Positions 3,801-58,500 of a stretch of DNA of 64,000 nt are shown piece by piece. This DNA comes from Spinacia oleracea (Eukaryota > Streptophyta > Magnoliopsida > Caryophyllales > Amaranthaceae), in the NCBI RefSeq assembly GCF_020520425.1, contig NC_079487.1, positions 110,766,141 through 110,830,140 on the forward strand, given 5' to 3'. The stretch's first letter is position 1. Every line of letters begins with the position of its first letter. The notes under the pieces were generated by a model. That model searched no databases. It saw nothing but the letters and a program-made list of their open reading frames with translations, and was not told the DNA's origin. The translations under genes were made by a program, and so were the position numbers.

Positions 3801-4899
3801 CTTTGCCAAGAACTCCGGCGGTGCTACTATTTCCCATGTAAACATGGTCTCCATCGGTAGCATCCTCAAATTCCGTCATGATAGCCTTGTTAGCACAAAA
3901 GTGTCTTGATGCTCCCGTATCCAAGATCCATTCTACCTTGTTCTCCACCAAATTGGCTTCAACCACCACCGCGGCTATCACCTCATTCTTTTCAACAAGG
4001 TTGGCTTGGGAGGCACCATTGGAGTTGCTCTTGTGGCGGTGATCACATTGATAGGCTTTGTGTCCTATCTTTCCACACACATAGCAAGCTCCTTTGGTCT
4101 TTTGAATCTTGTGGTTGTTAGTGAAGTTTCCTTTGGTTGAATGATTTTTCTTCTTCCCTTTGAACCTGTTTTTAGCCATAGGAGCACTAGATTCAACCAA
4201 GTTAGCTTTAGAAGAATTCAAAGAAAGGGATTCAAACTTATCCTTGAGGCGATTAGCCTCTTCGGTCCTCATATGACCAATGAGTTCTTGAAGGTTCATG
4301 TCCTTCTTCTTGTGCTTCAAAGAATTGCGGTAGTCATTCCATGATGGTGGAAATTTCTCCAAGAGTACATTGGCTTGGAGAGTTTCACACATCTTCATAC
4401 CTTCACCCAAGATGTCGGTGACGATGTTCTCGTAATCATGGACTTGATCCATGATGGACTTGTCATCCGTCATCTTGAAATTGATCCACTTACCAACAAC
4501 ATACTTTTTCTTACCGGCATCATCGGCTCCATACTTCTTTTGCAAGGTGTCCCAAATGGACTTGCTTGACCGATTGGTGATGAGGAGGTCAAACAAGATT
4601 CCATTCACATGATGGAGAATGTGAGCCCGAACAAGTTTGTTGTCTTTCTCCTTCTTGGTCAATGCTTCGGCCGCCTTCTGGACATCTTCCGCCGAAAGGG
4701 AGGGATCCGGTGCTACCGCCTTGCTTGCTTCAATTGCTTCAATCACATCCTCATAGAGCACATAATCTATTTCAAGTTGCTCAAAAAAGATCAATAATTT
4801 TTGTGACCATCTCTTGTAGTTCTTGCCATCAAGAGGCTCCAACTTAGAGAGGTCGGGAAGGGTCTTGTTCATCATAGAGTTAGCCATAACAATAGACAT
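889..4899 (-). CDS. Ty1/copia gag-pol polyprotein
   Basis: This 1,336-residue frame encodes all the proteins needed for copia retrotransposition with no internal stop. In order: a gag region with the UBN2-like capsid fold (about residues 15-220); a CCHC zinc knuckle C-x2-C-x4-H-x4-C (272-285); an aspartic protease with DTGA (327-330); the integrase HHCC zinc site (H458, H463, C489, C492); and an integrase core with D519, D583 and E619, the last two in D-x35-E spacing. Reverse transcriptase follows (about 850-1095) with YVDD at 1021-1024, then RNase H (about 1180-1320) with the aspartate of CDANW and the glutamate of STMESEF. Integrase before reverse transcriptase is the copia order. The length is normal for the family. 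The start [10 protein letters not shown] is the first methionine and a second lies five residues on. No key residue is missing, so the protein is probably functional. Confidence 0.95.
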
Positions 4900-4979
4900 A
4901 ATATCTCGTTTTCAAATTGTTGTAGATTAAGAGTTTTCAAGGCTAAAATGAAGAACAAGAAAGTAAGACTTACGGAACT

Positions 4980-5651
4980 TGTTGTGCCGTGGTAACCAAA
5001 CCACTGCCTTGAAAACGAGATTCGGTGCAACCGGGGTGCACAATTGTATTCACCGATTCGTTCCCTAAGGTTTACACAACCCTCAACACACAATGGCACT
5101 CTTGGGTGTGAGATGGAGTTACCAGAACTTATGCCCAAAAGAGAGGAAGAAAGGGAGATGATAAGGGAATGATTTTTCTGTAAACAAATCAAGAAATGAA
5201 GCATGTATTTATAGGATTAGAGGAGAATACAAAACAACCCAAAGAAACCAAAGGACTCAAAAGAATCCAATGGTATTGAATCACCAATTAAATCCATGAT
5301 AATGAAGGGTTTATAACCCCCATAATCAAGAGAAATAATGGACCAACTTAATCATCATAATCAGAATGATAATTGTCCATAAATCATACATAAAAGGTTA
5401 TCATAAAAGAGGAATCCAAAGAGAAGATCAAAAACGGACAACACTAAGAGCCGATCTCGAAACCTGCCGGTTTCTCAAAACCGGCCGGTTTTCGGTGCAC
5501 TTCAAAAAATGCATTTTAAGTCCGTTTTTCAACTCACGCTCGAAACCTGCCGGTTTTGGAAAACCTGGCAGACAGGTTTTGGGAAAACCTGCCGGTTTTC
5601 CAAAACCTGGCAGGCAGGTTTTGAGCGATTTTCCATCTTTAAATTCCAACA
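4980..5651 (-). repeat. 5' LTR of the copia element
   Basis: The outer end at 5651 (TGTTGGAA on the minus strand) is certain because it matches the other LTR. The inner end is inferred: ...CACAACA at 4980-4988 would mirror the TGTTG start and leave about 80 bases before the polyprotein start. I could not find a convincing tRNA primer-binding site to confirm it. The LTR would then be about 672 bp. Confidence 0.7.
5207..5213 (-). promoter_or_regulatory. Probable TATA box of the copia LTR
   Basis: TATAAAT on the minus strand within the 5' LTR, about 310 bases upstream of the polyprotein start codon, in the position expected of the U3 promoter. It is inferred from motif and location only. Confidence 0.5.
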
Positions 5652-16926: not shown

Positions 16927-19900
16927 TTAACTATTAAAACCATCACCACTTGCCGAAGAAAATTTCAATCCATATGTAGAAGCCCTCTTTGCCAATTCAT
17001 GAGCTGGCTGAACCTGGTCACGATGCACTTTGTAGATAATGCAATTCTTAAAACTCTTGCCGATGTCGAGAATCGCCTCTATTGTCCAATGAATCTGAAT
17101 ATTAGGTTTAACTCTTCTCTGCAAGTGGGAAACCAAAATAGCAGAATCAGTATACACCACAATGTCCTCATACGATGAATCCACAGCCCATTGCAAAGCT
17201 CGGAGACAAGCCATAACTTCAACATGAAGCGCTGATTGGCCTAAACCATAGTCACAACCTCCAATAATCTCCGTGCCATTTGTATGTTGTTGCTGAAGAA
17301 CCCACCCCATTCCCGCTCTTCGGTTTCTTTTATTCCAAGCTCCATCTATTTGAATGATTGTTGTAGATATTGGCAAACTTTCCACACCTATATTTGCAAA
17401 GTAAAATCCTGGAGGGTAATCAGGTGTATGATCTGTCGAATGAAGAGATCTCAAATTTCCTTCGTCCTTACCCCTGAACACCTTGTGTTGCTCTAAAGCT
17501 AGCTGAAGCTGAATCTGAAACGTACTTAAATCTCCAGTATGAGAATTAAACACTCTTTCATTTCGTGTAATCCAAATGGCCCACAAGGTTGCGATAAAAG
17601 TAACTATTCTGTCAGTGTTTGTTCCATCCACGCTTTTAAAAAGCTGGATATAATTGAGAATCCAATCTTGCATAGAAAGATTCTCATTAAGATTTGAGAG
17701 TATGGCTAGCATACTACTTCTCCACACATCTTGAGCCAATTTACAAAGGCGGAATATATGTTGAGAGTCTTCATCGTGGTCCCCACAAAAGTCACAAGTG
17801 ATATCCAAATTAACTCCGCGTCTAAACAAGCTTGTTTTGACCGGAATCCCTTCGACAATCAGCTTCCAAATAAACAATTTCCACTTTGGGAGAATTTTTA
17901 GCGCCCAAAGTAATTTAAAGAAAGGAATGAACCTTTTAGTATCCAGGTTATTTAGCTGATGTCTTTGGTCATCAATTTCCCGAAGAAAGGCATACCCAGT
18001 TTTAAGCGTGAAATTCCCTGTATTATGCTTAGTCCAATATAAGAAATCCAGTGAAGTAGAACACGACAATTCAACCGAGAGAATATAAGATGCATCCTTA
18101 TATTCAAAAGACTTTCTAACAAGTGTAGCATTCCATTGAAGTGTTTGGCTTTGTATAAAATGACTGACCTTCCATAACTTAGCATCCATTAGTCGAATGT
18201 GGGAAGCAAAAATGGGCACCCTACCATGAACCCATTTATCCTTTGAAGCAACGACATTACTCCCATTCCCAATATTCCAAGCACACCCAGTTTGTAAAAC
18301 ATTTTCAGCTCGTCGAAGACCTCGCATTCCCCATGAAATAGGACCGTGACAAATGTTAGGGGAACCAACAGATAATGCAAACTTTGATTTGGCAGCATAA
18401 ACTCTTGATATTAAAAGTTGAGGATTCTTATGCATTCTCCAGACTTGTTTCATTAAAAAAGCTGTATTAAGCGTAGACAAACAGCGAATTCCCAGACCTC
18501 CCATTCCACGAGGTAAATGTAAAATATCTCTACGAACCCAATGCATTCCCTTTTGACCTTGCTTAGCCCAGAAGAAAGTTGCAATCATTGAATTAATCTT
18601 ATTTGCAATTGCTCCAGGTAGTTCCAAACTCATCATTACATGGGAAACCGTTGCAACAAGGACAGAATTTATCAGAATCAGTTTTTGTACTTGGGATAAC
18701 AAAACCCCATTCCAAGAAGTAATTAACTCAGCAACCTTGTCAACCAAGAAAGTAAAATGTGAACGCTTTGTACCAATAAAATCAATAGGAACCCCCAAAT
18801 GACACCCAAACTTTGCAACCTGAGGCATGCTTAAGATAGACTTGAAGAGTTGTTGTTGTGGAAGAGAGGTGTTCAGACTGAACTTGATAAAAGACTTTGC
18901 AAGGTTCAATTGTTGACCAGAAATTCGACAATAACGATCCAGAATACCCCCAATGCTTGTACAAGAATTTTCTGTTGAACGGAAAAAAAAACCATCGCAT
19001 CATCAGCGAAGAACAGATGTGTAATTTTTGGGGCCATCCTTGTCAGCTTAATACCTTGAAATAGCTTAATATCCTGTCCTAACGTTAGCATGCGTCCTAG
19101 GATGTCCATGCAGAAAAGGAATAAATAAGGTGACAACGGATCTCCTTGTCTTAGCCCACACTTAGGTCTAAAAGGCGTAGAAGTTTTCCCATTAATCAAA
19201 ACCTTGTAGGACACGGTTGAAATACACTGATAAATCAAATGAATCCACTTTGAAGGGAAACCATAAGCTTGAAGGACCCGCAACAGGAAACCCCAGTGTA
19301 TACGGTCATAAGCTTTACTCATATCAATCTTAACTGCTGCCAAAGTTGGGCCACTAAACTTCCTTCCATTAATCAAATGCAGAATATCATGACTCAGTAA
19401 AATATTATCACTCATATACCTCCCAGGTATAAATGCATGTTGTTTTTCATCAATTAGAGCATTAAGGTTAACCTTCAGCCTATTAACCAGACATTTTGAA
19501 ATGCATTTGTAAACAGTATTACACAAACTTATAGGACGAAGATGATGTACCTCTTCCGGAGAAGCAAGTTTAGGTATCATTGCTAGCAAAGAGTGATTCC
19601 ACTCTTTAAGCAAATAACCACTGGAAAAGAAACTCTGAATTCCATCAATAATCGAATCACCCACTATGTCCCAGTGCTTCTTGAAAAAGTCAACTGTTAT
19701 TCCGTCTGGACCAGGAGATTTAGAATCTTTCATTTGAAACATCGAAAATTTAATTTCCGCAGCAGAAAAAGGAAGTGAAAGTCTAGAAATGTCTTGAGTA
19801 GAAAGCTGAGGAAGATCCATTTCACGTAAGACATTATCCACTTCGTTATAGTCAATATCAGGATCATTCGTCTTGAAAACAATTTTTAAATTGTCCACCA

Positions 19901-21078
19901 CAATTTGTTGAATTTTATCCTGACCTTCCTGAAAAATACCTTGCGAATCTTTCAAAGCAATTATTTCATTTCTCTTCTGTCTTTTCTTGACCTTAGAAAA
20001 GAGTACTTTCGAAGGGCAATCACCCTTAGACACCCACAATTCCTTCATTCTTTGAGACCAGTACTGAAAATGTAACTGCGCTTGCTCCTTTGACTGGTGA
20101 ATAACAGAATTGTAATGAATACCACTTTGCAAATTATGAACCCCTACTCCTGCAATTTCAAGATCCTTTGAAAATTGGCGCCAATTAATGCCCCAAAGTT
20201 TTTTATTCTTCAAACTCCATTTTCTTAAAACCTTACGAACTGAGTCCATTTTTCGAGACAAAGTATACATAGGTGAACCAAAAATGACCAAGTTCCACAC
20301 TTCCTCAATCGATTGAACAACCTCAGGGAAGGAAAGGCACCAATTCTCTAACTGGTAAGGTCGGTTCTTATTGAAAGTTGGTTCTTGTTTGTAAAACAAT
20401 GGCTGCATGGTCTGACACTAAAATTGGTTGATTAATAAGTCGAGTGCCTGGGTAATTTGTGAACCAATCATCTGTCATGTAAGAACGGTCTAACCTTTCC
20501 ATAATTAACTTATTAGACTCTCTTTTATTAGTCCAAGTAAAGGGTGGTCCATAAAAATTAACCTCGTGTAGATTGGATGCAACTCGCCAATGAACAAATT
20601 CATCCCACCCTCTAATAATTGATGACCCTCCTAATTTGTCCGAATACAACTCTACTTGATTAAAATCTCCAATTAATAAACAAGTAGGAGAAGAAATCAA
20701 AAGGTTAAGAATTTGAATCCAAACATTATCCCTATCCTCAACATTAGGCGCGCCATAAATAAACATTACTTTCCATATTTTTCCATTAGGTTCCACTACT
20801 TTACAAAGTACAATATTAGGAGAAACATACAAGTAACTAACATCAAAAGCTGTCCAACCATAAACAACTAAACCGCCACTCGAACCTACGGCATCTATAC
20901 CAAAAACAAAATTAGGGTTACAACCCCCTAAGAAATTAGTCATGTTAGCAAGAGTGGTTTTTGTTTCTGAAATAAACATAAACATAGGCAAAAAGTTTTT
21001 AAATAACCAAGTAGCATAAGGGCGAACTAAGGAACTTGGACTATTAGTTCCTCTACAATTCCAGGAGATGAACTTCAT
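16927..21078 (-). pseudogene. LINE ORF2: endonuclease, reverse transcriptase, RNase H; two frameshifts
   Basis: Three consecutive frames together cover a whole plant L1 ORF2. 21078-20368 is the apurinic-type endonuclease with N7 (WNCRG), E38 (SETK), D138/N140 (GDFNQ) and D223/H224 (SDH), all the expected catalytic positions. 20408-18906 is reverse transcriptase, including SKAYDRIHWGFLL, GLRQGDPLSPYLF and FADD. 18909-16927 is the thumb and C-terminal part, a zf-RVT zinc region (CDFCGDHDEDSQHIF) and a plant-type RNase H (DGAWN, EVMACLRAL, YTDS, AHELAKRA). Frame is lost once near 20370-20400 and once near 18980-19000, where the coding strand has a run of 9 T that could explain a one-base slip. 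The rest is open, so decay has only begun. No functional ORF2 can be made from this copy. Confidence 0.9.
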
Positions 21079-23375
21079 TTACCACTTGGGAGCTGTGATG
21101 GGCCAGCTGCCGAACCTTTTGTATCTTTCACAAAATCATGAGTGACAGACAAACTTGAGTGAGATTTCTGCTTCTTTGAAACTGAGAACACACAGCTGGG
21201 TTGAAGACGCTTCTTACCAACATCAAACTGATTCTTAGAACTATTTGCAAACTGATGCAGAAACACGGAAGGAGTTTGATGCATAACATCTGAAACATGA
21301 GTGGACAACAGTCTAACATCCTCAAAGCTTCTATGCCTTTTATGAGTCCAAGAGCAACCCGAATATCCTAGCTTAGGCATAACCTCATATGATCTCGAAC
21401 GCACAAAAGTATTAGGTTGTTTGCGTTTCTTGCACACATGATGAGTTGCTGTTTGTGATGTAAATACCATAACTGGAAAAGTTTTTAGCTCGGCTTGTAA
21501 ATCATTTTCACCCCGTGGAGATTGAAACTTGTGAACTGAAGGTGTTGATGGATCATTAGATAATCCATTAAGTGAATCTCCAATATTTGAAATTCCTGGA
21601 AGTAACAACCTCGAAGGAGGTTTGACTGCAGAAGAACGTTTCAGAAAAGAATCTGAAAAACCTCGAGAAGGTATATAAGTCTTAGCACGATCTGAAATTC
21701 CGAATTGCCCACCTGAATAAGCTTCAACATCTCTTAACTCATCATTTATTTTTCCTTCAACAAAAGCACCTGAATTAAGAGGCGCTGCTGCAACAGAATC
21801 CACCTGAACAGGCTGGACCGAATTAGAAAATTGTGGTACTGAATGAGATGGTTCCCCTTCTTCAACATTGGACCTAAATTCAGACTGTTTTCCCTTGAAC
21901 TTGCCACCTAAGTCAGCCTCAGAAATATTGCTTTCACTACTATCACTATGAATTGAAGGAGCTCGCATATGAAAGCTTGGATTAAAGTGTTGATTGTGAG
22001 AAGAGTAATATGGCTGGACTGGGTCTCCATGAAAAGTAGAGTGAACTGATGTGTGCCTGGTCACATTAAAACGCACTGGATGATGATAATTCTCAGGCGT
22101 TAGAGGGTCTGATTCTTCAGAAATAGGAACACCATTCCCTAAATCAATTTCATGTTCATCTTCAGTTGAATTGTCTTGAGCACTAGCATAACTTCCCGAG
22201 CCAGAACTGCCATTGGAATCATCTGTCGAATTATCAGACACAACCTGAATAAAATCATTCTCAAGAGGACCGTTCTGAGCTTCCCCCAAATTCATGTAAT
22301 TTAACCCATCATTAACATCATTTTGACCATGATCATGAGGGTAATTTACATCTCCATTCTGATACACTACATTCTGCAAATTACCCCCACCTCCATCATT
22401 ATTATCATCCGAAGAGCTATCACCCGAAGAGCTACCACTACCTTGATTGTCATCACCAACCTCGGGCTCTCCTTCATCATCCTCATCTTCATTCCCTAAC
22501 TCCGCATCTAACCCAAGTAATAACAAATTAACTCTGACATTCCTATTCCTATATCTGTCTGAAAGACCTTCTATCATGTTCGAGTATAAGGGAGTTTCCA
22601 TAGGGCCATGAATAACAGATAAACCAGCAGATTCAAAACCCTCCATTCTATCATTAATAAGACGAAAAGCATGATATGCTGAATAATCACAGTTACACGT
22701 ATAATGCCCCACTAAACCACATTTCTTACAGAATTTGTAAATCCCCTCATAACAAAAATAAACCCACACAAGTTGACCCCCAGGAACAGGAACAAAGCAA
22801 CCAGGAATTAATGGTTTTGTTAAATCCAACCATACCTTTGCTCTGAATTCTGGAGTTGAGGGAAGAACATCACCATTCTGCTCCATTAACTCAACATAGC
22901 CAATGAGATTAAGGCATTTCAAAGCCCACTCAGGGTCCAGCAACCCAAGTGGTAGCCCTACAACTCGAATCCATAGCCAAGCCTTGCTGAAATCAATATT
23001 GGCCAGAATGGTGCTCACACTTCCTCTGCGGAAAGTGATTACTCTACCGTCAATTATAGTAGAATGAAGCTCAATTAGGGCTTCGACATCAGCCTGATGA
23101 GAGCAAACAAAGACATAGAACTCTCCTGTACGGTAAACAGAAATATTCTCTCTTTTCACCCAATTTGAGTCCACCAGATGTTGCACCATGCCTTGACTTG
23201 GAGGATTGGTGTCAAAGAAATGTCCCACAACTGATTTATCCCAATTTATTTCCCCCATATTAAACTCATGAGGAGGGTCAACACGGGGACCCATCCTATG
23301 AGTTTGCCAAGGATGCACTTGATTCATGAAGGAGCAAACAAAAGGAAACTTTTGAGAGTAATTTAGAATTTGCAA
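21075..23375 (-). CDS. LINE ORF1 protein, gag-like (DUF4283 + CCHC)
   Basis: A 766-residue nucleic-acid-binding protein of the LINE ribonucleoprotein. The N-terminal part (about residues 40-200) has the DUF4283 pattern of plant L1 ORF1 proteins, including AWLWIRVVGLPLG. A CCHC knuckle C-x2-C-x4-H-x4-C follows at 216-229. The rest is low complexity: an acidic Glu/Asp/Ser/Gly stretch (about 290-330), serine-rich and basic segments to the end. No internal stop. The start could instead be Met17, Met28 or Met40; Met28 or Met40 would place the start just before the conserved domain. The stop codon overlaps the ORF2 start as ATGA (21075-21078), so ORF2 may be translated by termination-reinitiation. 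Confidence 0.88.
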   Translation of the reverse strand: MQILNYSQKFPFVCSFMNQVHPWQTHRMGPRVDPPHEFNMGEINWDKSVVGHFFDTNPPSQGMVQHLVDSNWVKRENISVYRTGEFYVFVCSHQADVEALIELHSTIIDGRVITFRRGSVSTILANIDFSKAWLWIRVVGLPLGLLDPEWALKCLNLIGYVELMEQNGDVLPSTPEFRAKVWLDLTKPLIPGCFVPVPGGQLVWVYFCYEGIYKFCKKCGLVGHYTCNCDYSAYHAFRLINDRMEGFESAGLSVIHGPMETPLYSNMIEGLSDRYRNRNVRVNLLLLGLDAELGNEDEDDEGEPEVGDDNQGSGSSSGDSSSDDNNDGGGGNLQNVVYQNGDVNYPHDHGQNDVNDGLNYMNLGEAQNGPLENDFIQVVSDNSTDDSNGSSGSGSYASAQDNSTEDEHEIDLGNGVPISEESDPLTPENYHHPVRFNVTRHTSVHSTFHGDPVQPYYSSHNQHFNPSFHMRAPSIHSDSSESNISEADLGGKFKGKQSEFRSNVEEGEPSHSVPQFSNSVQPVQVDSVAAAPLNSGAFVEGKINDELRDVEAYSGGQFGISDRAKTYIPSRGFSDSFLKRSSAVKPPSRLLLPGISNIGDSLNGLSNDPSTPSVHKFQSPRGENDLQAELKTFPVMVFTSQTATHHVCKKRKQPNTFVRSRSYEVMPKLGYSGCSWTHKRHRSFEDVRLLSTHVSDVMHQTPSVFLHQFANSSKNQFDVGKKRLQPSCVFSVSKKQKSHSSLSVTHDFVKDTKGSAAGPSQLPSGK

Positions 23376-23860
23376 AAAAGAATGAAAGAAATTAAGAAAA
23401 GAACAGAGAAGAGAATAAAGAAAGGTAGTTTGAAAGAGACAGAGAAGAGGAAAAGGTAGAGAAGAGTATCCAAGAAACTAAAACACTGAGGGAGAATTTT
23501 GATCGGTTGTTATTAAAAACCTAGGAAAAGACAAGTGTTAAAGAATTAACAAAAGATTAACAACTATCAAGGGTTTTAAAAGGACAAATGTCAAAAAAGA
23601 AAATAAATCATGCAAACCAGGTGTTAAAACAAGAATTAACCAAAGGATTTCTTAAAAAGTTAACAGAAGAAACGGTGGATTAAAGGAAATTAATAAAAAG
23701 GTAAAGAAAAACTAAGGAGATCATAAGAACAAAAAGAAGAACTGGCGAAGGAAACCCTAATCGCTTAGGGAGAATTTCACTCTCTTTCTTTGAGAGGTTT
23801 TGGAGCTGTGTGCTTAAATTTGAGCTGCTTGCTTATTGAACTTTAGATGAAAAATCTATC

Positions 23861-26584: not shown

Positions 26585-26619
26585 GACTGAGTCTTGGACA
26601 CTACAAGAAATTGATTAAT

Positions 26620-27080
26620 TACCAACCGCTAAAATTGGTTGGTAAAACGCGAAAAACGGTTGGTAAAAGATTTTGCGACCGCCAGCGGTCGCAAAAAAGC
26701 GGTCAGTTTTCACCTGGACGGTAATTTAGGGAACTCCAACTGGAAGGCGGTCGCTAAAATTTACCGACAGAATTAGCGACCGCCACCTAAGCAGTCACTA
26801 AATTAGTGACCGCCAATGCAGTCACTAAATTAGTGACCGCTATTGCAGTCGCTAATTTAGCGACCGCTCTGACGGTCACTAAATTAGCGACCGCTTTGGC
26901 GGTCACTAAATTAGTGACTGCCTTTTTAGCGGTCACTAAATTAGTGACTGCTTTCTTGGCGGTCACTAATTTAGTGACTGCTTTGGCGGTCACTAAATTA
27001 GTGACTGCCTTGGGGGCGGTCACTAAATTAGTGACTGCTTTTGTGGCGGTCACTAAATTTGTGACTGCCTTTGCGGTCGG
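26620..27080. repeat. Left subterminal repeat array of the CACTA element
   Basis: About a dozen copies of GCGGTCACTAAATTAGTGAC and relatives. Each is close to a palindrome (GTCACTAAATTAGTGAC). In En/Spm such subterminal motifs bind TnpA and bring the ends together. The repeats lack stops in several frames, which creates misleading long open frames on both strands. Confidence 0.85.
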
Positions 27081-27382
27081 TAATTATGCAAATATCATTT
27101 GCAGCCAATTTTGTAAAATCGCATATATACCTGTATTATATGCCTGTATAAATATTATATATGTACCTGTAAATATTATATATGTACCTGTAAATATTAT
27201 ATATGCCTGTATATATACGAATTTATATAAATTCTGTAAAATCGTATGAAACCTGCTCGATGTTATAATATTAAACATGTTCAAAGTCATACAACAAAGA
27301 TTCATAATACACATAATGTTGTTCAAACATGTTAATACGAAAAGTTGTAACTAGTTCAAACTAATACAAGAATACTAACTAC

Positions 27383-30300
27383 CTAACACAAAGGTGTCCC
27401 GCCTCCGGGTGGATCTCGAGGGTCCTGCGACTGCGAGAAAGGAAAACCAGTACACTGACTGAACATCCGCTCGTAAGACTCCATTGCCTTTTTCATCTGG
27501 GCGGCATGTTCTTCTCTTTCTTGTCTCTCCCTTTCTCTCTCTTGTCTCTCCCTTTCCATCTCCCTTTGGTGCTGTAGTCGCTCTGCTTCTCTTTCTTCTC
27601 TCTCCCTTTGCCTCAAAAGTAGATCGTCCTCCATAGCCTTTAACATCTGATTTTTTGTTGTTTCAAGCTCAATGGATTTTTGGGTCAACTGTTGTTGAGT
27701 CTCTTCCAATCGAGATGACATTTGAGAATAAATAGATGGGGTGTATGAGCTAGAAGAACTACCACCCCTTCTAGATGGTGCAAAGTATAGAGAGGCTCCA
27801 CTACCCAGCCCGGGGACCTTTCCCTTCTTTCTCCCACCTACTGTCTCAAAGTAGATTTGGTTGGGATCTTTAGCAATGCCTTTTTCAACACATTCAGCAA
27901 CATTTTTTTCATAGTTTTCCTACAAGAATTAAAATGATTATCACCCATGCATAAAAAAATATATTAAATGGAGCACATTTAAACTTAAAACGTGTTTCAT
28001 AAGCTTTGTTTGAACTTGCTAAGTCACATTCTTTCCGTAGTTTTCCTACAATAATTAAAATGATTATCACCCATGCATAACAAATATATTAAATTGAGCA
28101 CATTTAAACTTAAAACATATATAGGCTAAATAAGGCATTTTCGCTCCCATTTTTCAAAAAAAAGAACTAAGGGCTGATTTTAAACTTAAAACATGTTTCA
28201 TAAGCTTTGTTTTCACTTGCTAAGTCACATTCAAACGTAGTTACTCACATCTAAGGCCTATTTGGTCGTTATAGGTCATATATTGCCTAAAATGTCATTT
28301 TCTCGCCTAACTTTGAGCTAAGGAACCAAACTTGTCATTTCAAACCATTTACATGTTTTATGTGTCATATTCAAGGTTTCTAAAACCGATTCTAAGCAAT
28401 TTAAGCACATTTAGGTCATATTTGGTCGATATAGGTCACTTATAGGCTAAATAAGGCGTTTTCGGTCCCATTTTTCAACTTAATCACCTACGGGCTGATT
28501 TTAAACTTGAAACATGTTTCATAAGGTTAGTTTGAACTTGCTAAGTCACATTCAAACGTAGTTACTCACATCTAAGGCCTATATGGTCGTTATAGGTCAT
28601 ATATTGCCTAAAATGTCATTTTCTCGCCTAACTTTGAGCTAAGGAACCAAACTTGTCATTTCAAACCATTTACATGTTTTATGTGTCATATTCAAGGTTT
28701 CTAAAACCGATTCTAAGCAATTTAAGCACATTTAGGTCATATTTGGTCGATATAGGTCACTTATAGGCTAAATAAGGCGTTTTCGGTCCCATTTTTCAAC
28801 TTAATCACCTACGGGCTGATTTTAAACTTAAAACATGTTTCATAAGGTTAGTTTGAACTTGCTAAGTCACATTCAAAGGTATTTACTCACATCTAAGGCC
28901 TATATGGTCGTTATAGGTCATATATTGCCTAAAATGTCATTTTCTCGCCCAACTTTGAGCTAAGGAACCAAACTTGTCATTTCAAACCATTTACATGTTT
29001 TATGTGTCATATTCAAGGTTTCTAAAACCGATTCTAAGCAATTTAAGCACATTTAGGTCATATTTGGTCGATATAGGTTACATATAGGCTAAATAAGGCG
29101 TTTTCGGTCCCATTTTTCAACTTAATCACCTACGGGCTGATTTTAAACTTAAAACATGTTTCATAAGGTTAGTTTGAACTTGCTAAGTCACATTCAAAGG
29201 TATTTACTCACATGTAAGGCCTATATGGTCGTTATAGGTCATATATTGCCTAAAATGTCATTTTCTCGCCTAACTTTGAGCTAAGGAACCAAACTTGTCA
29301 TTTCAAACCATTTACATGTTTTATGTGGCATATTAAAGGTTTCTAAAACTGATTCTTAGCAATTTAAGCACATTTAAGTCATATTTGGTCGATATAGGTC
29401 ATATATAGGCTAAATAAGGCATTTTCGGTCCCATTTTTCAACTAAATCACCTAGGGGCAGATTTTAAACTTAAAACATGTTTCATAAGCTTTGTTTGAAC
29501 TTGATAAGTCACATTCAAAGGTATTTACTCACATCTAAGGCCTATATGGTCGTTATAGGTCATATATTGCCTAAAATGTCATTTTCTCGCCCAACTTTGA
29601 ACTAAGGAACCAAACTTGTCATTTCAAACCATTTACATGTTTTATGTGGCATATTAAAGGTTTCTAAAACTGATTCTTAGCAATTTAAGCACATTTAAGT
29701 CATATTTGGTCGATATAGGTCATATATAGGCTAAATAAGGCATTTTCGGTCCCATTTTTCAACTAAATCACCTAGGGGCAGATTTTAAACTTAAAACATG
29801 TTTCATAAGCTTTGTTTGAACTTGATAAGTCACATTCAAAGGTATTTACTCACATCTAAGGCCTATATGGTCGTTATAGGTCATATATTGCCTAAAATGT
29901 CATTTTCTCGCCTAACTTTGAGCTAAGGAACCAAACTTGTCATTTCAAACCATTTACATGTTTTATGTGGCATATTAAAGGTTTCTAAAACTGATTCTTA
30001 GCAATTTAAGCACATTTAAGTCATATTTGGTCGATATAGGTCATATATAGGCTAAATAAGGCATTTTCGGTCCCATTTTTCAACTAAATCACCTAGGGGC
30101 AGATTTTAAACTTAAAACATGTTTCATAAGCTTTGTTTGAACTTGATAAGTCACATTCAAAGGTATTTACTCACATCTAAGGCCTATATGGTCGTTATAG
30201 GTCATATATTGCCTAAAATGTCATTTTCTCGCCCAACTTTGAACTAAGGAACCAAACTTGTCATTTCAAACCATTTACATGTTTTATGTGGCATATTAAA

Positions 30301-33300
30301 GGTTTCTAAAACTGATTCTTAGCAATTTAAGCACATTTAAGTCATATTTGGTCGATATAGGTCATATATAGGCTAAATAAGGCGTTTTCGGTCCCATTTT
30401 TCAACTTAATCACCTACGGGCTGATTTTAAACTTGAAACATGTTTCATAAGGTTAGTTTGAACTTGCTAAGTCACATTCAAACGTAGTTACTCACATCTA
30501 AGGCCTATATGGTCGTTATAGGTCATATATTGCCTAAAATGTCATTTTCTCGCCTAACTTTGAGCTAAGGAACCAAACTTGTCATTTCAAACCATTTACA
30601 TGTTTTATGTGTCATATTCAAGGTTTCTAAAACCGATTCTAAGCAATTTAAGCACATTTAGGTCATATTTGGTCGATATAGGTCACTTATAGGCTAAATA
30701 AGGCGTTTTCGGTCCCATTTTTCAACTTAATCACCTACGGGCTGATTTTAAACTTAAAACATGTTTCATAAGGTTAGTTTGAACTTGCTAAGTCACATTC
30801 AAAGGTATTTACTCACATCTAAGGCCTATATGGTCGTTATAGGTCATATATTGCCTAAAATGTCATTTTCTCGCCCAACTTTGAGCTAAGGAACCAAACT
30901 TGTCATTTCAAACCATTTACATGTTTTATGTGTCATATTCAAGGTTTCTAAAACCGATTCTAAGCAATTTAAGCACATTTAGGTCATATTTGGTCGATAT
31001 AGGTTACATATAGGCTAAATAAGGCGTTTTCGGTCCCATTTTTCAACTTAATCACCTACGGGCTGATTTTAAACTTAAAACATGTTTCATAAGGTTAGTT
31101 TGAACTTGCTAAGTCACATTCAAAGGTATTTACTCACATGTAAGGCCTATATGGTCGTTATAGGTCATATATTGCCTAAAATGTCATTTTCTCGCCTAAC
31201 TTTGAGCTAAGGAACCAAACTTGTCATTTCAAACCATTTACATGTTTTATGTGGCATATTAAAGGTTTCTAAAACTGATTCTTAGCAATTTAAGCACATT
31301 TAAGTCATATTTGGTCGATATAGGTCATATATAGGCTAAATAAGGCATTTTCGGTCCCATTTTTCAACTAAATCACCTAGGGGCAGATTTTAAACTTAAA
31401 ACATGTTTCATAAGCTTTGTTTGAACTTGATAAGTCACATTCAAAGGTATTTACTCACATCTAAGGCCTATATGGTCGTTATAGGTCATATATTGCCTAA
31501 AATGTCATTTTCTCGCCCAACTTTGAACTAAGGAACCAAACTTGTCATTTCAAACCATTTACATGTTTTATGTGGCATATTAAAGGTTTCTAAAACTGAT
31601 TCTTAGCAATTTAAGCACATTTAAGTCATATTTGGTCGATATAGGTCATATATAGGCTAAATAAGGCGTTTTCGGTCCCATTTTTCAACTTAATCACCTA
31701 CGGGCTGATTTTAAACTTAAAACATGTTTCATAAGGTTAGTTTGAACTTGCTAAGTCACATTCAAAGGTATTTACTCACATCTAAGGCCTATTTGGTCGT
31801 TATAGGTCATATATTGCCTAAAATGTCATTTTCTCGCCCAACTTTGAGCTAAGGAACCAAACTTGTCATTTCAAACCATTTACATGTTTTATGTGGCATA
31901 TTAAAGGTTTCTAAAACTGATTCTTAGCAATTTAAGCACATTTAAGTCATATTTGGTCGATATAGGTCATATATAGGCTAAATAAGGCGTTTTCGGTCCC
32001 ATTTTTCAACTTAATCACCTACGGGCTGATTTTAAACTTAAAACATGTTTCATAAGGTTAGTTTGAACTTGCTAAGTCACATTCAAAGGTATTTACTCAC
32101 ATCTAAGGCCTATTTGGTCGTTATAGGTCATATATTGCCTAAAATGTCATTTTCTCGCCCAACTTTGAGCTAAGGAACCAAACTTGTCATTTCAAACCAT
32201 TTACATGTTTTATGTGTCATATTCAAGGTTTCTAAAACCGATTCTAAGCAATTTAAGCACATTTAGGTCATATTTGGTCGATATAGGTTACATATAGGCT
32301 AAATAAGGCGTTTTCGGTCCCATTTTTCAACTTAATCACCTACGGGCTGATTTTAAACTTAAAACATGTTTCATAAGCTTTGTTTTCACTTGCTAAGTCA
32401 CATTCAAACGTAGTTACTCACATCTAAGGCCTATTTGGTCGTTATAGGTCATATATTGCCTAAAATGTCATTTTCTCGCCTAACTTTGAGCTAAGGAACC
32501 AAACTTGTCATTTCAAACCATTTACATGTTTTATGTGTCATATTCAAGGTTTCTAAAACCGATTCTAAGCAATTTAAGCACATTTAGGTCATATTTGGTC
32601 GATATAGGTTACATATAGGCTAAATAAGGCGTTTTCGGTCCCATTTTTCAACTTAATCACCTACGGGCTGATTTTAAACTTAAAAAGTGTTTCATAAGCT
32701 TTGTTTGAGCTTGCTAAGTCACATTCAAGGGTATTTACTCACATCTAAGGCCTATTTGGTCGTTATAGGTCATATATAGGCTAAATAAGGCATTTTCGGT
32801 CCCATTTTTCAACTAAATCACCTAGGGGCAGATTTTAAACTTAAAACATGTTTCATAGGTCATATTTTGTCGATATAGGACCTATATTGACCAAATAAGG
32901 CATTTTCGCTCCCATTTTTCAAATAAACGAACTAAGGGTTGATTTTAAACTTAAAACGTGTTTCATAAGCTTTGTTTGAATAATAGTAAGTTACCTTGAT
33001 TTGCTTTGCTTTGCTACTACAAGGGACTTTCCCTTTACCCGGTACTTCCTTCGTGTGTGTCTTCAAATATAAGTCACCAGCTGTAGGCATCACACCTCCA
33101 CTTTCCTTTGCCTAATAATACAAGTAATTTTTGTGAATAATCAAATTAGTAACAACGTTAAATGAAATTTAGTTACATTATTAAACTTACCATTTTCTTT
33201 GCAGCCTCAGTTGTGGAAATGGAACCTTGGAAATGTGATGGTTCAACATTGTTGGTTAATGAACCCCCTCTTCTATTTTTCTTAGCCTGCTCAGATCTTT

Positions 33301-36218
33301 TCTTGAATTCATCATCATCCACGTGCTTCATCATATTGTTTATTTTATTTTCCTTTCAATGACTAGTGTAAGTAATATTGTTTATGAATGAAAGCAAAAT
33401 ACAATTAATCTCACATGTGATTTAAACCATTCAGGGAACTGGGCTTCGCATTTACTCCAAATATCCTCCATTACTATGTGAGGTTGAGTTTGGATAATGT
33501 GCTCCTCAAATTTCCTATGGTAATTAAGGAAATAAAGGTTAAATACGTCGTTAGAAGAGTTTACAATAATTAAATTATAGTTTTTTACCTTTCATATTCA
33601 CCTAAGATGCCACTGTTTGCAAGCACATAAAGATGTGCTCGATCATACTCCATGTCTTGCAAGAAGCGCAAACGGCCATTAGTAGGTGCACGACCACAAT
33701 CCACCCTGAACATCTCGGGGATATTAACGTCATGTTGGTTCTCAACAACCGAATGGACATTTCTTCCTAGATCCCTTGCTTTGGTGTCAACCTCAGGTTG
33801 AAAATAGTGGGAACAAAAGTTCGTAATCTCCTCCATTAGGTAAGCATTGCATATGGAGCCTTCTACACGTGCCTTATTTCCAACCTTACGCTTCAAATGG
33901 TTAAGAAACCTATAAATTATGTAAGTTTGATTAATAGTTACTAGTAAACATATAAGATATTTAAAGTAATAATTTATTTACGCTAATTTGTATTATTTTG
34001 ATTACCTTTCAAATGGGTACATCCACCTGTACTGGACGGGACCACCAACCTTTGCCTCATGTGGAAGATGAACTGGCAAGTGTTCCATTGAGTTGAAAAA
34101 TGCAGGTGGAAAAATCTTCTCTAGCTTGCACAAGATCTCAGCTATATTCTTATCCAAGCGATCTATGTCACTCGCTTTGATAGTGGGGGCGCATAAGTCT
34201 CGGAAGAATTGACTAATCTCTGTAATTGCCTTCCAAACATGCAAGGGAAGCAACTCCTTCAAAGCAACCGGAAGTAACCTCTCCATGAAGACATGACAAT
34301 CGTGGCTCTTCATTCCATACAGCTTGCATGATTGAAGATTAACACACCTGCTCAAGTTTGAAGCATAAGCATCCGGGAATTTCAAGTCTCGAACCCATTC
34401 ACATAACACCTTCTTTTGAGCCTTGTCAAGTGCAAAGGGTGCTTTTGGCATGGTTTGATTTCCATTTCCAAGCTCTAACTGCCGACGTTTACAATACTTA
34501 GCCATATCTTTCCTTGCACTAGTGGTGTCCGAGGTGCTACCTTTCACATCCATCACAGTGTTTATGAGTTGGTCAAAAAAGTTCTTTTCAATGTGCATGA
34601 CATCCAAGTTGTGACGAAGAAGCAAATCCTTCCAATATGGGAGTTCCCATAGAATACTTTGTTTGAACCAACCCATTTTGGCACTCTTCAACTTCTTAAG
34701 AGCTTCAGGACCATCAGTTGCTTTAGGCAAGTCCTTCACGCATTGCCACAATTCTTCTCCACACATTATATGCGGACCCATGCCATTTTCAACTTTGTTT
34801 TTGCAGAAAGCTGTTTTATTCTTTCGAAAAGGGTGATCATGTGGAAGGAATTGTCGATGACAATCAAACCATGAAACTTTACCTCCATGTTCAAGCCAAA
34901 ATGCCTTGCTTTTATCCATACAATAAGGGCAAGCCTTCTTTCCGGCCGTGGACCATCCAGATAGCATTCCATATGCAGGAAAATCACTAATAGTCCACAA
35001 AAGGGCTGCGCGGAGGTTGAAATTCTGCTTGCTTGAGATGTCATAAGTCATAGCCCCAACCTCCCATAACTGTTTCAACTCTTCAATGAGTGGTTGCATG
35101 TACACATCCAAGTTTCCTTTAGGATTTTTAGGACCGGGAACGAGCAAAGAAAGGAACATGAATGGTCTTTTCATACACATCGATGGAGGCAAGTTGTATG
35201 GTGTAAGAATAACCGGCCAACATGAATATTGGGATCCAAATTTACCATGGGGGGCAAATCCATCTGTGCACAAACCAAGCCTGACATTTCGTGGCTCTGA
35301 TGCGAAATTAGGAAAGGTTGTATCCAAGTGCTTCCACGCTTGACTATCACTAGGATGTGCGAAGGTGTTTTGAACTCGGGGATTCTTGGCATGCCAAGTC
35401 ATATCCTCCGAAATGTTCTTGGTAGCATACAACCTTTGCAACCTCGGTGTGATTGGAAAATAGATTAGAACTTTTGCTGGAATAAGCTTACCCTTTGCAG
35501 TCTTCTTATACCGATCACTTCCGCATACTCTACATTTATCTAATTGTGCATCGCCTTTCCAGAAGAGCAAACAACCTTTAGGGCATGTGTGGATCCTCTC
35601 ATGAGGAAGTTCCAAGCCCTCAAGAACCTTCTTTGTGCTATTGAAAGTTCTACCCATTTGGTTGTTATTTGGAATCGCATCATTCATCAAAGATGCAAAC
35701 CCATCCACACACCTGTGTTGTAAGTTGAATTCACATTTCAAACTTGCAATTCTTGATGCCATCTCCAACACAGAGAGTTTGCTCCCTTCATATAATGGAT
35801 CTCCAGCTGCCTTTAGAAGGTCTATAAACTTCTTAGCTTCATCATTTGGTTCTTCTTCAACTGAATTACCCTCTTCATTCACCAAATGCTCTTGATTATT
35901 TCCAAGAGCATCAATAACCATATCCCGATATTGATTTGGCTGAACACGCGAGGACTCTACTAAGCTTTCCCCTTGACATATCCATTGATAGTAATTACGA
36001 ACAAACCCCTTCTTGTACAAATGTACTCTAACTGTTTCAGTATCATGAAAACGCCTGTTATCACACAAGGGGCATGGGCATCTTATTTTGTCACCATCAT
36101 TGCATGTTGGATGCTCTTTGCAAAACTCAATGAACTCTCCAACCCCCTTGAGAAAGTCGGGCTTAAGATTGCGCCCGTCGAGTCTATCATACATCCAACT
36201 ACGCTCTCTTCTTTTCAT
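27383..36218 (-). CDS. CACTA transposase, TnpD (tnp2) joined to a TnpA-like C-terminus
   Basis: Six exons join in frame by eye: 36218-34006, 33909-33589, 33514-33415, 33352-33191, 33111-32995 and 27919-27383, giving 1,149 residues. All junctions are GT-AG. Exon 1 has the Transposase-associated domain (C47, C49, C52 in IRCPCPLCD), then the tnp2/Transposase_21 domain with LGLCTDGFAPHG, KKACPYCMD and LDVMHIEKNFFD, then the start of DUF4218. Exons 2-3 finish DUF4218 and carry the family's FPEWFK motif. Exons 4-6 read as a Transposase_24-like segment (FETVGGRKKGKVPGLG) followed by a strongly charged Arg/Glu coiled coil. TnpD cuts the ends and TnpA-type proteins bind subterminal repeats. One continuous reading of both is the simplest interpretation, but alternative splicing into two proteins, as in Spm, is possible. 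The start at 36218 is preferred over an upstream Met because MKRRERSWMYD begins the conserved domain. Confidence 0.85.
27920..32994 (-). other. Last intron of the CACTA transposase, 5.1 kb
   Basis: It runs from an AAG|GTAACT donor at 32995/32994 to a TTGTAG acceptor at 27920. Almost all of it is the 321-bp tandem array. Near the acceptor a segment of about 120 bp (containing ttaaaatgattatcaccc) occurs twice, at about 27913 and 28035. Confidence 0.8.
28140..32900. repeat. 321-bp tandem satellite array with higher-order structure
   Basis: The word TATTGCCTAAAATGTC occurs 14 times, at 28281 and then every 321 bases exactly to 32454, with partial units at both edges. Each monomer is two diverged halves of 160 and 161 bp: GGTCGTTATAGG and GGTCGATATAGG alternate at that spacing and the rest aligns. 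Diagnostic variants recur at exactly 1,926 bases, six monomers (28501/30427, 29211/31137, 29590/31516), so a six-unit block was duplicated. No monomer has a usable open frame. Monomers show no length change, which points to ongoing homogenisation or recent amplification. Confidence 0.95.
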
Positions 36219-37384
36219 GATACCAAATTCTACATATCTCACAAAAAACATGTTACTAACCAATCTCTACACATCTCACACTAATCATGTTACTAAACCT
36301 ACTATATAGTCTAACTACCGCTCGAAGTTTTCTAAATAAACAATCAAATAATTGATTTTATTAATTATATAAAAATCAATACTTATTAATGATATAAAGT
36401 TAAATAATTTATTAATGATATAAAGATCAATAATTTATTCAAACGCACTTATAAATTATATAAAGTTCAATAATTTACTTATAATTTATATAAAGATCAA
36501 TAATTACTTAAACACAAGCCAATAAGGATAAAAATCAAATATAAATAATAAAATGCATTTACAATAAACACCTAAACATGCACGAATTTATTCAATACAC
36601 TTACTTACTACTCAAATTCATTCTCTAAATTATTCGTTGTTTCTCATATGACATTCCTTGAATCTTTGGCATAAAATTAAATTTCATAAAATCTTACACC
36701 TACACCTACATCAAAATTCTTACACCTACACCTACATCAAAATTAAATTCCTTGAAATTTTGGCATAAAATTAAATTTCATAAAATCTTACACCTACATC
36801 AAATTAAGTACGGCATTCCTTGAAAATTTCATAAAATTTCCATAATTTCCATAATTTTCCATAATTTTCTAACAAGTCATTCCATAAATTCATTGAAAAA
36901 AATACCCATTAATTATCTAACAAGTCATTCCATAGTTATGGGTCAAAAAATTAGAAGAGAAAAAAAAGATTACCTTCAAAGATCGAAGAGTTCACATACA
37001 AGATCTACAATTGATATAAACAACAAAGTTAGGGTTTGAAAAATTAAAGCATTATATTATGAAAAAACTAAGAATAAAGGTTACCTGGAGTGGAAAACAT
37101 CGACGATTGAGTAGTCCGGTCCGGTGGGTGGTCCGCCTGGGCTGCTGGCTGGGGGCGCCGTGCGCGGCTCGGGGGGGGGTTGGGCGTGGGCTGGGCTGCT
37201 GGCTGGGGGAACCGTGCGCGGCTGGGCTGGGTGGGTCGTGCACTCTGGCCGAGTCGGGGGGTTAGGGTGGCGCCGTCGGGGGAGGGGGGTGGTTCACCGG
37301 CGGGGGAGGGGGGTCGAAGGAGGGAAGGCTCTTCAAGTTTTTTTTGGTCGAAGGAGGGAATACAGATTTTTTTTTTCTTTTTTT
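36219..37384 (-). other. 5' leader region of the CACTA transposase gene
   Basis: An AT-rich stretch (36300-37080) with near-duplicate words (TTACACCTACACCTACATCA), then a GC-rich island (37090-37320). On the minus strand the island ends ACTCCAG|GTAACC near 37085, a good splice donor, so it may be a non-coding first exon and promoter. The proline- or glycine-rich open frames in it are probably composition artefacts. Confidence 0.5.
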
Positions 37385-37739
37385 AATTTAGTGACCGTTT
37401 TTGGTCATTGATTATTTATTTTTTTTTTTATTTTTTTTTTTAATTTTAGCGACCGCTTTTTTGGTCGGGTATATTATATAGGCGGTTGGTAAAATTTTAA
37501 ATTTATTTTGAAAATAGTCGGAATTTACCGACTGCTAAATAGTCGGAATGAAAGTTTATGCAGTCGATAAATTTACGACCGTTATGAAAGCGGTTGGTAA
37601 ATTTTAAATTTACCAACCGCTCTACATTCGGTCGGTAAATTTAGCGACCGTTTCTATTTCGGTTGGTAAATTTATTTTTACTGACTACTTTCACGGCGGT
37701 CGGTAAAATCAGTTGGTAATCAAGCGCTTTCTTGTAGTG
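37385..37739. repeat. Right subterminal repeat array of the CACTA element
   Basis: Several copies of the words AGCGACCG, GCGGTTGGTAAA and CGGTCGGTAAATT, related to but shorter and more varied than those at the left end. Asymmetry between the ends is normal in CACTA elements. They are presumed transposase binding sites. Confidence 0.75.
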
Positions 37740-38157
37740 GGAGTAAGACGATGGTCAAAGTATTAGACGGAGTGCATCACACAAATCATGGTGTATGTGA
37801 CCTGTTTTGCGAGGGTCTCACGAGCCCCCGAGTGATAACATTTGACTTAAGGGTCATCACTTGAAGTGTCGACATATCCCTCACGTGTCATTGGGATTTG
37901 TCAACTGATAGTATAGAAACTTCCTCACTTTGTCATTGGAAGGATCTAAAGGTGCGTAGAAACTCCCTCACTTTGTCATTGGGAGTAACTACAGATGTTT
38001 TCGAAATTAAAGCTGTAAAGTGTAATTGGGCCTGGCCAAGCCACATCACGAGGTAAAACGTTTTTAAAGATTCTCATTTTCAGGGCTAGCTAAACGAGAA
38101 AACCCCCTTGTTTTTATAGGACGTAAAACGAAGGAAAATCCAACACATCGTTCTTTT

Positions 38158-38400
38158 TTGGAAAAACGAAAAACCAATCCTTTAATTTTTGGAAAAAGGG
38201 AAAACCGATCCTTTAATTTTCGGAAAAAAGGGAAAACCGATCCTTTAATTTTCGGAAAAAAGGGAAAACCGATCCTTTGATTTTCGGAAAAAGGGAAAAC
38301 CGATCCTTTAATTTTCGGAAAAAGGGAAAACCGATCCTTTAATTTTCGGAAAAAGGGAAAATCGATCCTTTAATTTTCGGAAAAAGGGAAAACCGATAAA
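38158..38400. repeat. 31-32-bp minisatellite in the LARD
   Basis: About eight head-to-tail copies of a unit with core GATCCTTTAATTTTCGGAAA and tail AAGGGAAAACC. Variation is mostly in the length of the A run. It directly precedes the hairpin repeat block. Confidence 0.9.
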
Positions 38401-55509: not shown

Positions 55510-58500
55510 ATGGCGATATCGAAACGGATCGTATTTCCAGCTCTCCTATGGCTTCTCGCTCTCTTCGCATTCTTACTTCTTATTCTGGTATTGTTTCATT
55601 TCCCAAATTTTCAGCTTTTTGTACATTTAATTTCATACTTCAAGCTCTCTATTTTTTAGGGATGCTTTGGTTCAGCTTATTTTTTCATCTTGTCAATTGC
55701 AATTTGTGTTTGATGCGAGACCCCTTTTTTGTGTATGTGATTTTAATTTCTGATTTGTAATTTTCAGATGTTCAATTAATTTTACCATTTTATATTGCAT
55801 TAATTGCAGAACCATTTAAATGATCCTGGATCATCTGAAGTGCAGAAAGTTAGGGATCCACGCATAAATAGTGATGATCTAGGGAGTGTAAAAGAGGTGA
55901 GTAACTGAGTTTATAGTCAGCCTTTTGAATTATTAGGGTTTTGGAAATCTTATTCTATGGGTGTTTATTTGATTGGACTGATTGACTGAATGTGTTTTAG
56001 GGGAAGGCGTCCATTGATGGGATGAGAGAAGTGACTCACCGGGTTTTTTTCGATGTCGAGATTGATGGGAAGCCTGCTGGTATGTGTTGTTTTAACACAT
56101 TGTTTTGAGAATTGATGAATTGCTTGATTATGTATTGAGGTGTGGAAAAGTGGGAGATGTTAAAATAGGCAATCCGGGGGTATTATTGCATCGTAATGTT
56201 TGCTTGCGACTAAACTTCGTTGGCTAGAAATTCCGTTCCTGAGGTGTGAAGGTTTTCTGGAAGTATTGGTTTTTGTGGATCACTAGCAGTCTGCAGTGTA
56301 GCATATAGTGTTATTTATGTTTCCAAATAATCACAGTTCCGAGTCTTCTGACAGTTTGTTTAGGCGTAGTTGCTTGTCAAGGATGCATATAGGGGTGTTA
56401 ATGAGCTGAGCCGAGACCGAGCTTAGGCAAGCTCGGCTCGAGCTCGAAACCTGTGAGCTGCGTCTCGGCTCGAGCTCGAAGCTCGACGAGCCTGTAACAT
56501 TGGGCTCGAGCTCGAGCTCGAAATTTTTTAATCGAGCTCGAGCTCGGCTCGAAGCTCGAAGCTCGGCTCGAAGTACCTGTTATCCAGCAGCCTTAACACA
56601 AGTACACAACAACGATATGTAATTTAACAATCTGTTTTCAACCTGTTTTCCAGTCTTTATATAGCCTAAAACAAAAAATGTCTTACACAAAATAACTAAA
56701 AAAAAAATTTAACGTTCAAACAATAAAATTTGGTCTCAAATTCAAATGTAAAATTAATAAAATTATACATGATTCATCAATACAACATCAAAGGTTCCAT
56801 AAAATTAAAACAAACGCCTTCTTGCTCCTATTTTCATGTTTTTTTCCGAAAAACCTACACAAAAAAGTCAACATATAGTCATTATAAAAACTAAGTAATA
56901 TAAAGATTAACGAAAAGGAGTGAGGGAAAAGTAACCTAAGGAATAGGAAGAATGATTTCCTTTGGTTCATCCTCTTCAATACTCTGTACATATTATAAAA
57001 TTAATTAGTTAAGTACATATAAAACAGAAAAGACATAAAAAAAAACATTTTCCATCTTACTTTGTTCTTTCTTTGCACTCCATAACGGGACCTACACCAA
57101 TCTCCTGTGCAAATCAACATTTGCACGGTCTCGGGAAGTAATGATGCTCGATAAGAATCAATAACACGACTTCCAGCACTAAAAGTAGCCTCGGAAGCAA
57201 CAGTTGTAATAGGAACAGCTAAGATATCGGCAGCCAATTTAGACAAAATGCGATATTTTGAAGACCTTTCCTTCCACCATTGTAAAACATCAAACTTATT
57301 TGGGCTATTTCCTTCAACAACAAAGGTTTCTTCCTCAAAATACAACTCCACTTCTGATTTCTTAGGTTGAGATGTTTCCCCAATTCTCACAACTTGTATA
57401 ATTCTAGACATCGCATAAAGGTCATCTTCTTCAACATTTGACGTTCCATTTCCACATTCACCAAATTCCTCCACTAAAGGAGGATACATATTGAGATACT
57501 CATCATACAATTCAATCAGAGTATCTTTAACTTTATTTATATTCTCCCTAACTTTATCTGAAGCAAACATGGTAGGAAAAGTAATTTCAACAACCTTCAT
57601 CTTAACACGAGGATCTAACAACCCACCTAAAGCCATGATCAAATTACATTCACCCCAATACTTATCAAACCTTTCTTTCATGTTTTTAACCATATCTTTA
57701 ACAAAAACATCAGGGGAATCAGCATTACTATCCAACATTTTCTTAATGTAGTAGACCTCCGAGAGAAACAAATTAGAAGTTGGATATTCAGAGCCTGAGA
57801 TAATGTTGGTAGTACAATAAAGAACCTTTAAGATCTTTATCAATTTCTCAATTTTAATCCAATCATCAGCACTAGGACAATAAACATAATCGTTATCCTC
57901 TAAAGCAAGTCTAGAAAATACCTCCTTGAACTTGATTGCACAAGCTAACATATCATAAGTTGAATTCCATCGAGTCTTGCACTCAAGAACTAATCTCCTT
58001 TCCTTGAGATTGAATTGTTGGACAAGCTCAGTGAACTTTTTCAATCTTGCCTCACTCCCATTGAGGTATTCCACAGAATCATGGACATTCTTAATGATGG
58101 TTTTGACTTGCTTTAGACCATGCTGGACCATAATATTAAGAATATGCGCACAACACCGAACATGGAACAATTTTCCACCACATACTAACCTCTTAGTTAG
58201 TGAGAACGTATCCTTCATAATTTGTATGCATGAATCATTTGCACTGGCATTATCAACTGATACCGTGAAGACCTAAAAGAGAGAAAGAAACAAAAAAAAA
58301 ACAAAAGTTATCAATCTAATCAGTAGCTATGTTTTCAAATATAAAATTAGTAAAACATATATTTGTAAATGGATAAATAAACACTTACTTTGTTTTCAAT
58401 TTCCCACTCCTTTAAGCACCTAAATATGCAATTTGCTATGTCTTTTCCTTTTCTAGGAGGAGGTATGTGTACAAAACTCAAGACTCGCTTTTGTAGTTTC

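Follow-up and report, generated by a model that had tools for sequence, protein, structure and literature searches.

Closest described systems

Arrays of a 171-bp satellite DNA lie inside or near CACTA elements in Chenopodium quinoa (Belyayev et al. 2022, PMC8978399), and the Chenopodium satellite CficCl-61-40 comes from the CACTA element Jozin (PMC7320549). Tandem subrepeats of Ogre long terminal repeat (LTR) retrotransposons expand into satellites in Lathyrus sativus (PMC7004042), and the non-autonomous Cg_HINE Helentrons of the Pacific oyster carry central arrays with units of 166-167 bp in three clusters (PMC7492417). We describe a 321-bp tandem array located between two transposase exons of a CACTA element in spinach (Spinacia oleracea), within a 64,000-nucleotide stretch of contig NC_079487.1 (positions 110,766,141 to 110,830,140) that we refer to as the window. 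In our estimate, the probability is roughly 0.85 that this is an old intronic tandem array of one CACTA lineage, which changes in length by unit steps and has spread by transposition.

By analogy, the spinach array appears close in kind to the quinoa arrays: both occur in Amaranthaceae, in CACTA elements, with units of nucleosome size close to the element's 3' end and in several copies. The quinoa array, however, has been placed outside the predicted coding sequence and has been explained as a capture, whereas the spinach array lies between coding exons and is common to divergent subfamilies. A search with the quinoa consensus (a 169-letter query, possibly lacking two letters) found nothing in the arrays at E <= 1, and only 18-bp matches inside exon 6. 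CficCl-61-40 is likewise a CACTA-linked satellite of Amaranthaceae, but its unit of ~40 bp derives from tnp2 coding sequence and is not intronic. Ogre subrepeats resemble the spinach case in forming short arrays dispersed within a mobile element and occasionally expanded; they sit in the 3' untranslated region of a retrotransposon, whereas the spinach arrays occupy an intron of a DNA transposon and reach about 16 kb at the longest. Cg_HINE elements, like some spinach derivatives described below, are non-autonomous and disperse their arrays over the genome, but they belong to another transposon class and no relation to known autonomous Helentrons was found, while the spinach derivatives share a family with exon-bearing copies. 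The spinach array can be viewed, again by analogy, as the DNA-transposon counterpart of the Ogre and Helentron-derivative cases. No satellite array in a transposase intron is described in the parts of PMC4158355, PMC9659126, PMC2613891, and PMC8195511 considered. The published spinach satellites SpSat04-324 (MN918727) and Spsat3 (about 325 bp) give fluorescence in situ hybridization signals on one chromosome arm according to the portions of those accounts considered, whereas the clusters reported here fall on six contigs, a comparison by description only.

A tandem array in the last intron of a CACTA transposase gene

The window holds a complete CACTA element with terminal inverted repeats (CACTACAAGAAA at 26599 and its inverse TTTCTTGTAGTG ending at 37739), a 3-bp target-site duplication (TSD), and tnp2-type transposase domains; domain matches in the window include Transposase_21 (3.1e-80), Transposase_24 (1.9e-19), Transpos_assoc, and DUF4218. 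Its features, with coordinates in the window and repeats determined by Tandem Repeats Finder (TRF) where indicated, are as follows.

26596..26598, partner 37740-37742, unstranded: 3-bp TSD GGA, read directly
26599..37739, transposase gene on (-): complete CACTA (En/Spm-type) element, 11,141 bp, from matching ends and direct reading
26771..27078, unstranded: subterminal palindromic tandem repeats, about 27-29 bp, of the AATTAGTGACCGC...GCGGTCACTA type (TRF and sequence)
27383..27919, (-): exon 6, 178 amino acids, end of Transposase_24 and a charged tail, acceptor AATTCTTGTAG
28026..28120, unstranded: second copy of the acceptor region (about 27901-27991), carrying a decoy AG and a repeated exon 6 start
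28119..32797, unstranded: 321-bp tandem array in intron 5 (TRF: 14.6 copies, 97% matches, 0% indels)
28441..29741, second copy 30367-31667, unstranded: exact 1,301-bp internal duplication, origin of a supposed 1,926-bp period
32798..32967, unstranded: degenerate partial units on the donor side of the intron
32995..33111, (-): exon 5, ends KQIK, donor GTAACTTA
33191..33352, (-): exon 4, 5'-truncated by deletion; modelled 5' boundary 33352 speculative in this copy
33336..33342, unstranded: junction of a ~1.9-kb internal deletion through which the DUF4216 exon was lost and exon 4 was shortened at its 5' end
33415..33514, (-): exon 3
33589..33909, (-): exon 2, remainder of DUF4218
34006..36266, (-): exon 1, Transpos_assoc, Transposase_21, and start of DUF4218; open frame, modelled 5' limit

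A preliminary description of this DNA had placed the array inside a CACTA transposase intron flanked by good splice sites. Both points agree with the sequence: the array has a transposase exon on either side, the Transposase_24 domain bridges it, and GGA flanks the element at both ends. The phases of the modelled exons are consistent, and the Transposase_24 match over exons 4-6 scores 70.6 bits when joined versus 49.7 and 15.7 for its separate parts. Splicing of the array intron is predicted from these features, and the splice sequences recur in divergent copies (donor-like in L031, L034, and L035; acceptor-like in these and in L033). The duplicated acceptor end (27901-28120) also provides a second exon 6 start and a decoy AG roughly 125 bp upstream.

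The array is highly regular. The 16-mer TATTGCCTAAAATGTC has 14 occurrences between 28281 and 32454, and the exact 321-base spacing reported earlier is found in 13 of 13 intervals; shuffled sequence contains a mean of 0.13 occurrences, and 14 were reached in 0 of 100 shuffles. Two ~161-bp units, different from each other at 37% of positions, make up each 321-bp dimer, and TRF also reports a weaker sub-period of 160/161 bp. Satellite DNA forms arrays of tens of kb or more and is usually heterochromatic. The window array has the head-to-tail units and high identity of a satellite (97%, 0% indels) at a length of 4.7 kb, and the longest array that we found reaches 16.2 kb; the window array is satellite-like rather than a classical satellite.

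The 1,926-bp higher-order period previously assigned to this array, with three independent variants recurring at 6 x 321, was rejected. Differences between window monomers at lag 6 are 9, 0, 0, 0, 8, 9, 14, and 9, and the zeros derive from the single exact 1,301-bp duplication, so the three variants are one event; the window array contains no third copy of the block. The window consequently shows one duplication and no tandemly repeated multimer, rather than the centromere-like structure that had been proposed. A true higher-order repeat is present in a sibling copy, L023, at 5 x 321 = 1,605 bp, where differences average 1.3 at 1,605-bp spacing (six comparisons) and 2.7 at double that spacing, versus 8.5-14 at others.

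The window copy had also been taken to make transposase. A sibling, L015, has between exon 3 and exon 4 a segment of ~1.9 kb that is absent from the window copy; this segment holds the 5' part of the Transposase_24 exon together with a DUF4216 exon (E 1.2e-15). Among 40 genome matches to 32985-33352, the deletion is unique to the window copy; the other 39 extend no further than query position 352, where the window has its deletion junction. The boundary of exons 3 and 4 in the window is accordingly tentative. A complete transposase gene, which only an autonomous copy requires, is absent here, and because ~1.9 kb of the transposase including DUF4216 is missing, the window copy is probably a non-autonomous CACTA element.

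Array-bearing copies across the genome

We searched 894,210,420 bases in 242 contigs; the clusters and the census matches listed fall on C1-C6 (115-189 Mb). The 16-mer TATTGCCTAAAATGTC has 297 exact places (108 forward, 189 reverse), versus 1 for the reversed control, and the 321-bp unit has 395 matches. About 100 of the 297 places and part of the 395 matches are listed, and the cluster counts that follow refer to the matches listed.

The 321-bp search yielded 30 clusters. In 25 of these, an exon 6 match lies on the side predicted, at a distance of 235-5,388 bp from the array edge as listed; in the other five, reading the DNA (L025-L030) revealed CACTA parts. Six further clusters among the 16-mer places were also read, and all lie in CACTA elements. 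All 36 placed 321-type clusters are therefore inside CACTA copies, 21 by DNA reading (window included) and 15 by coordinates. A search with the 161-bp unit gave 17 clusters, 15 with an exon 6 match 95-508 bp away and two that, when read, lie within CACTA remnants. A private expansion in the window copy, named in the preliminary description as a refuting case, fails because the array occurs in many CACTA copies. In L029 (2863-4101; C3:146181362-146182600), the outer edge of the array shows array sequence running both ways, and no CACTA end was found in the 4.1 kb examined on the outer side of this array (C3:146.18M).

Matching 3-bp TSDs (GGA, GAG, TAG, ACA, TAT, GAT, and TTT) flank all seven elements for which both exact ends were found. 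No exon was found in the derivatives L011, L026, and L027, which have kept the array. L026 and L027 (3,338 and 3,339 bp) are 98.3% identical over 3,167 bp, each retains 1,385 bp of array, and each has its own TSD (GAT and TTT); their flanks show no similarity in 597 bp on either side. We take this as direct evidence, at the level of sequence, that the array travels to new places within a CACTA derivative, as the preliminary description had thought possible.

Array length changes in steps of half a dimer

Pairing exon 5 matches with exon 6 matches gave 37 introns; 3 of 40 exon 5 matches had no exon 6 partner and were not counted. A 21,621-bp outlier at C4:158086433 was excluded from the length statistics. 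Another length, at C6:150825307, was corrected from 9,298 to 4,913 bp because an insertion splits exon 6 there; this ~4.3-kb insertion occupies L046 1631-5951 (C6:150830630-150834950).

The remaining 36 introns range from 431 to 7,864 bp (median, 2,522). Among the 23 copies whose exon 5 is at least 99% identical, lengths cluster modulo 160.5 bp (R = 0.758; matched by 0 of 100,000 jittered sets), and of the periods from 100 to 500 bp, 160.5 fits best. With the uncorrected 9,298 bp, R is 0.731 for these 23 copies and 0.419 for all 36.

Closely related copies differ widely in array size. Over 1,321 bp of sequence beyond the array, L013, L015, and L022 match the window at 99.8, 99.5, and 99.2% identity, yet they contain 8, 12, and 0 full-length monomer matches, respectively, versus 14 in the window. 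The 431-bp intron belongs to a copy whose flanking exon matches are 100% identical to those of the window. At the other extreme, one C3 copy has a 16.2-kb array with 50 full monomers; the exact end motif was not found at its left end.

Divergent subfamilies share the array

We read 11 divergent copies, in which exon 6 is 46-80% identical. Homologous arrays of ~161-bp units precede exon 6 in 9 of the 11, and in 8 of these 9 exon 5 lies opposite. Array periods are 161 bp in L033, L034, L036, L037, L039, and L041, 162 in L038, 169 in L035, and 320/321 in L032; 14 unit consensuses align over their full length. Because nine divergent copies carry homologous units of this size, 161 bp looks like the ancestral unit and 321 bp like a dimer.

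In all eight comparisons of the window with divergent copies, exon 6 has a ratio of nonsynonymous to synonymous substitution (dN/dS) of 0.19-0.29 at a dS of 0.56-1.32. Such values would be anticipated for a translated exon behind the array, and they point to purifying selection.

The unit itself diverges between subfamilies at p 0.30-0.41. Introns 4, 1, and 2 give 0.25-0.32, 0.26, and 0.405, respectively, and shuffled controls diverge by a mean of 0.54 (unit) and 0.44 (intron 4). Special conservation of the whole unit is therefore unsupported: its divergence equals or exceeds that of short introns in the gene, with no sign of unusual constraint. Conservation is higher in the middle of the unit (GAAAATGnCATTTTTAGGCATAAATGACCTATAACGACC) than elsewhere in it (p 0.0025 for the best 50-column window, in a column permutation that ignores relatedness).

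Other features of the window

An open Ty1/copia polyprotein of 1,340 amino acids with gag, integrase, and RVT_2 domains lies at 889-4911 (-), and TRF rows of identical consensus at 92-260 and 5455-5623 suggest, unaligned, the two LTRs of this element. A LINE-like element at 16927-23477 (-) contains four open reading frames, three of which were scanned and contain zinc knuckle/DUF4283, RVT_1, and zf-RVT plus RNase H-like domains. Just beyond the CACTA element is a second tandem array (38155-38397; 31-bp unit, 7.8 copies, 95% matches), and the C-terminal part of a hAT transposase (hAT-like_RNase-H, Dimer_Tnp_hAT) is found at 57001-58272 (-).

Origin and evolution of the array

The most economical account, in our view, is an ancient intronic array that changes in ~160-bp steps, moves by transposition, and occasionally expands locally. 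The position in the intron, the homology among subfamilies, the length steps, the mobility of derivatives, and the purifying selection on exon 6, all seen in the sequence, argue for it. The ancestral unit would have been ~161 bp, and two diverged units would have formed the 321-bp dimer of the subfamily to which the window belongs. The array would pass down with the element and gain or lose whole units, presumably through a recombination process such as unequal exchange or repair slippage. It also moves along at transposition, even in derivatives without exons, and because it rides with the element, the transposon would seed the same satellite at many sites. Single arrays may occasionally undergo local expansion, which in one copy has reached about 16 kb.

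Several observations weigh against this account. The matches listed are a part of all matches, so arrays outside CACTA could be missed, and 15 of the 36 CACTA placements rest on coordinates only. The length clustering is weaker over all 36 introns (R = 0.43; 103 of 100,000 jittered sets), and most lengths are derived from coordinates and may contain other insertions. Among the divergent copies, L031 has no array but an 811-bp intron with one remnant, L040 has no such array, and exon 5 was found neither there nor in L033, which has an array before exon 6. Unit-by-unit comparison is blurred because the 321-bp dimer is made of two paralogous units, and the close pair L031-L032 has an exon 6 dN/dS of 0.67, a value based on few changes (dS 0.04).

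The array could instead be an existing host satellite captured by a CACTA element, as has been proposed for the quinoa 171-bp satellite; Belyayev et al. (2022, PMC8978399) favor capture there, citing in the part considered a related array in C. sosnowskyi without a CACTA link. We think this improbable in spinach, where every placed cluster of either type (36 of 36 and 17 of 17 among the matches listed) lies in a CACTA copy and the quinoa consensus matches none of the arrays at E <= 1. Homologous arrays also precede exon 6 in subfamilies separated from the window by an exon 6 dS of 0.56-1.32, so any capture would be very old. That the arrays or their copy numbers are artefacts of assembly is very improbable. 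Tandem arrays are prone to collapse, and PacBio continuous long reads underlie the spinach Monoe-Viroflay assembly, if that is the source; yet arrays of differing length occur at unrelated sites, each with its own TSDs, and 34 of the 36 introns are shorter than 6 kb, below the ~20-kb library fragment size given for that assembly in the part of PMC8668906 considered.

Selection might alternatively maintain the array as a functional intron element, through nucleosome phasing, silencing, or protein binding. Its persistence in 9 of 11 divergent copies with a unit near 161 bp, the more conserved middle of the unit, and its retention in L011, L026, and L027, the derivatives in which no exon was found, would all fit such a role. 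We nevertheless regard it as unlikely, given that the unit as a whole diverges no less than short introns of the same gene and that the intron is down to 431 bp in a copy with flanking exon matches identical to those of the window. An ancient intronic array spread by transposition remains our preferred explanation. One extension of it, which we offer as speculation with the odds well against it, is that the last intron serves as a satellite nursery: a nucleosome-sized unit of ~161 bp would be retained in tandem at this intron over about 0.6-1.3 synonymous substitutions per site, copy number would act as a splicing rheostat for each copy and hence for autonomous activity, and mini-elements with arrays would seed dispersed satellites in the host.

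The origin of dispersed satellites is an open question, and CACTA transposition of an intronic array is a route by which a scattered satellite could start. At one homologous intron in one genome, we find no array, few units, ~160-bp steps among copies whose exons are almost identical, array-bearing mobile derivatives in which no exon was found, a higher-order repeat, and an expansion to 16 kb. With this graded series, how fast and in what way arrays change can be measured directly, using exon divergence as the clock.

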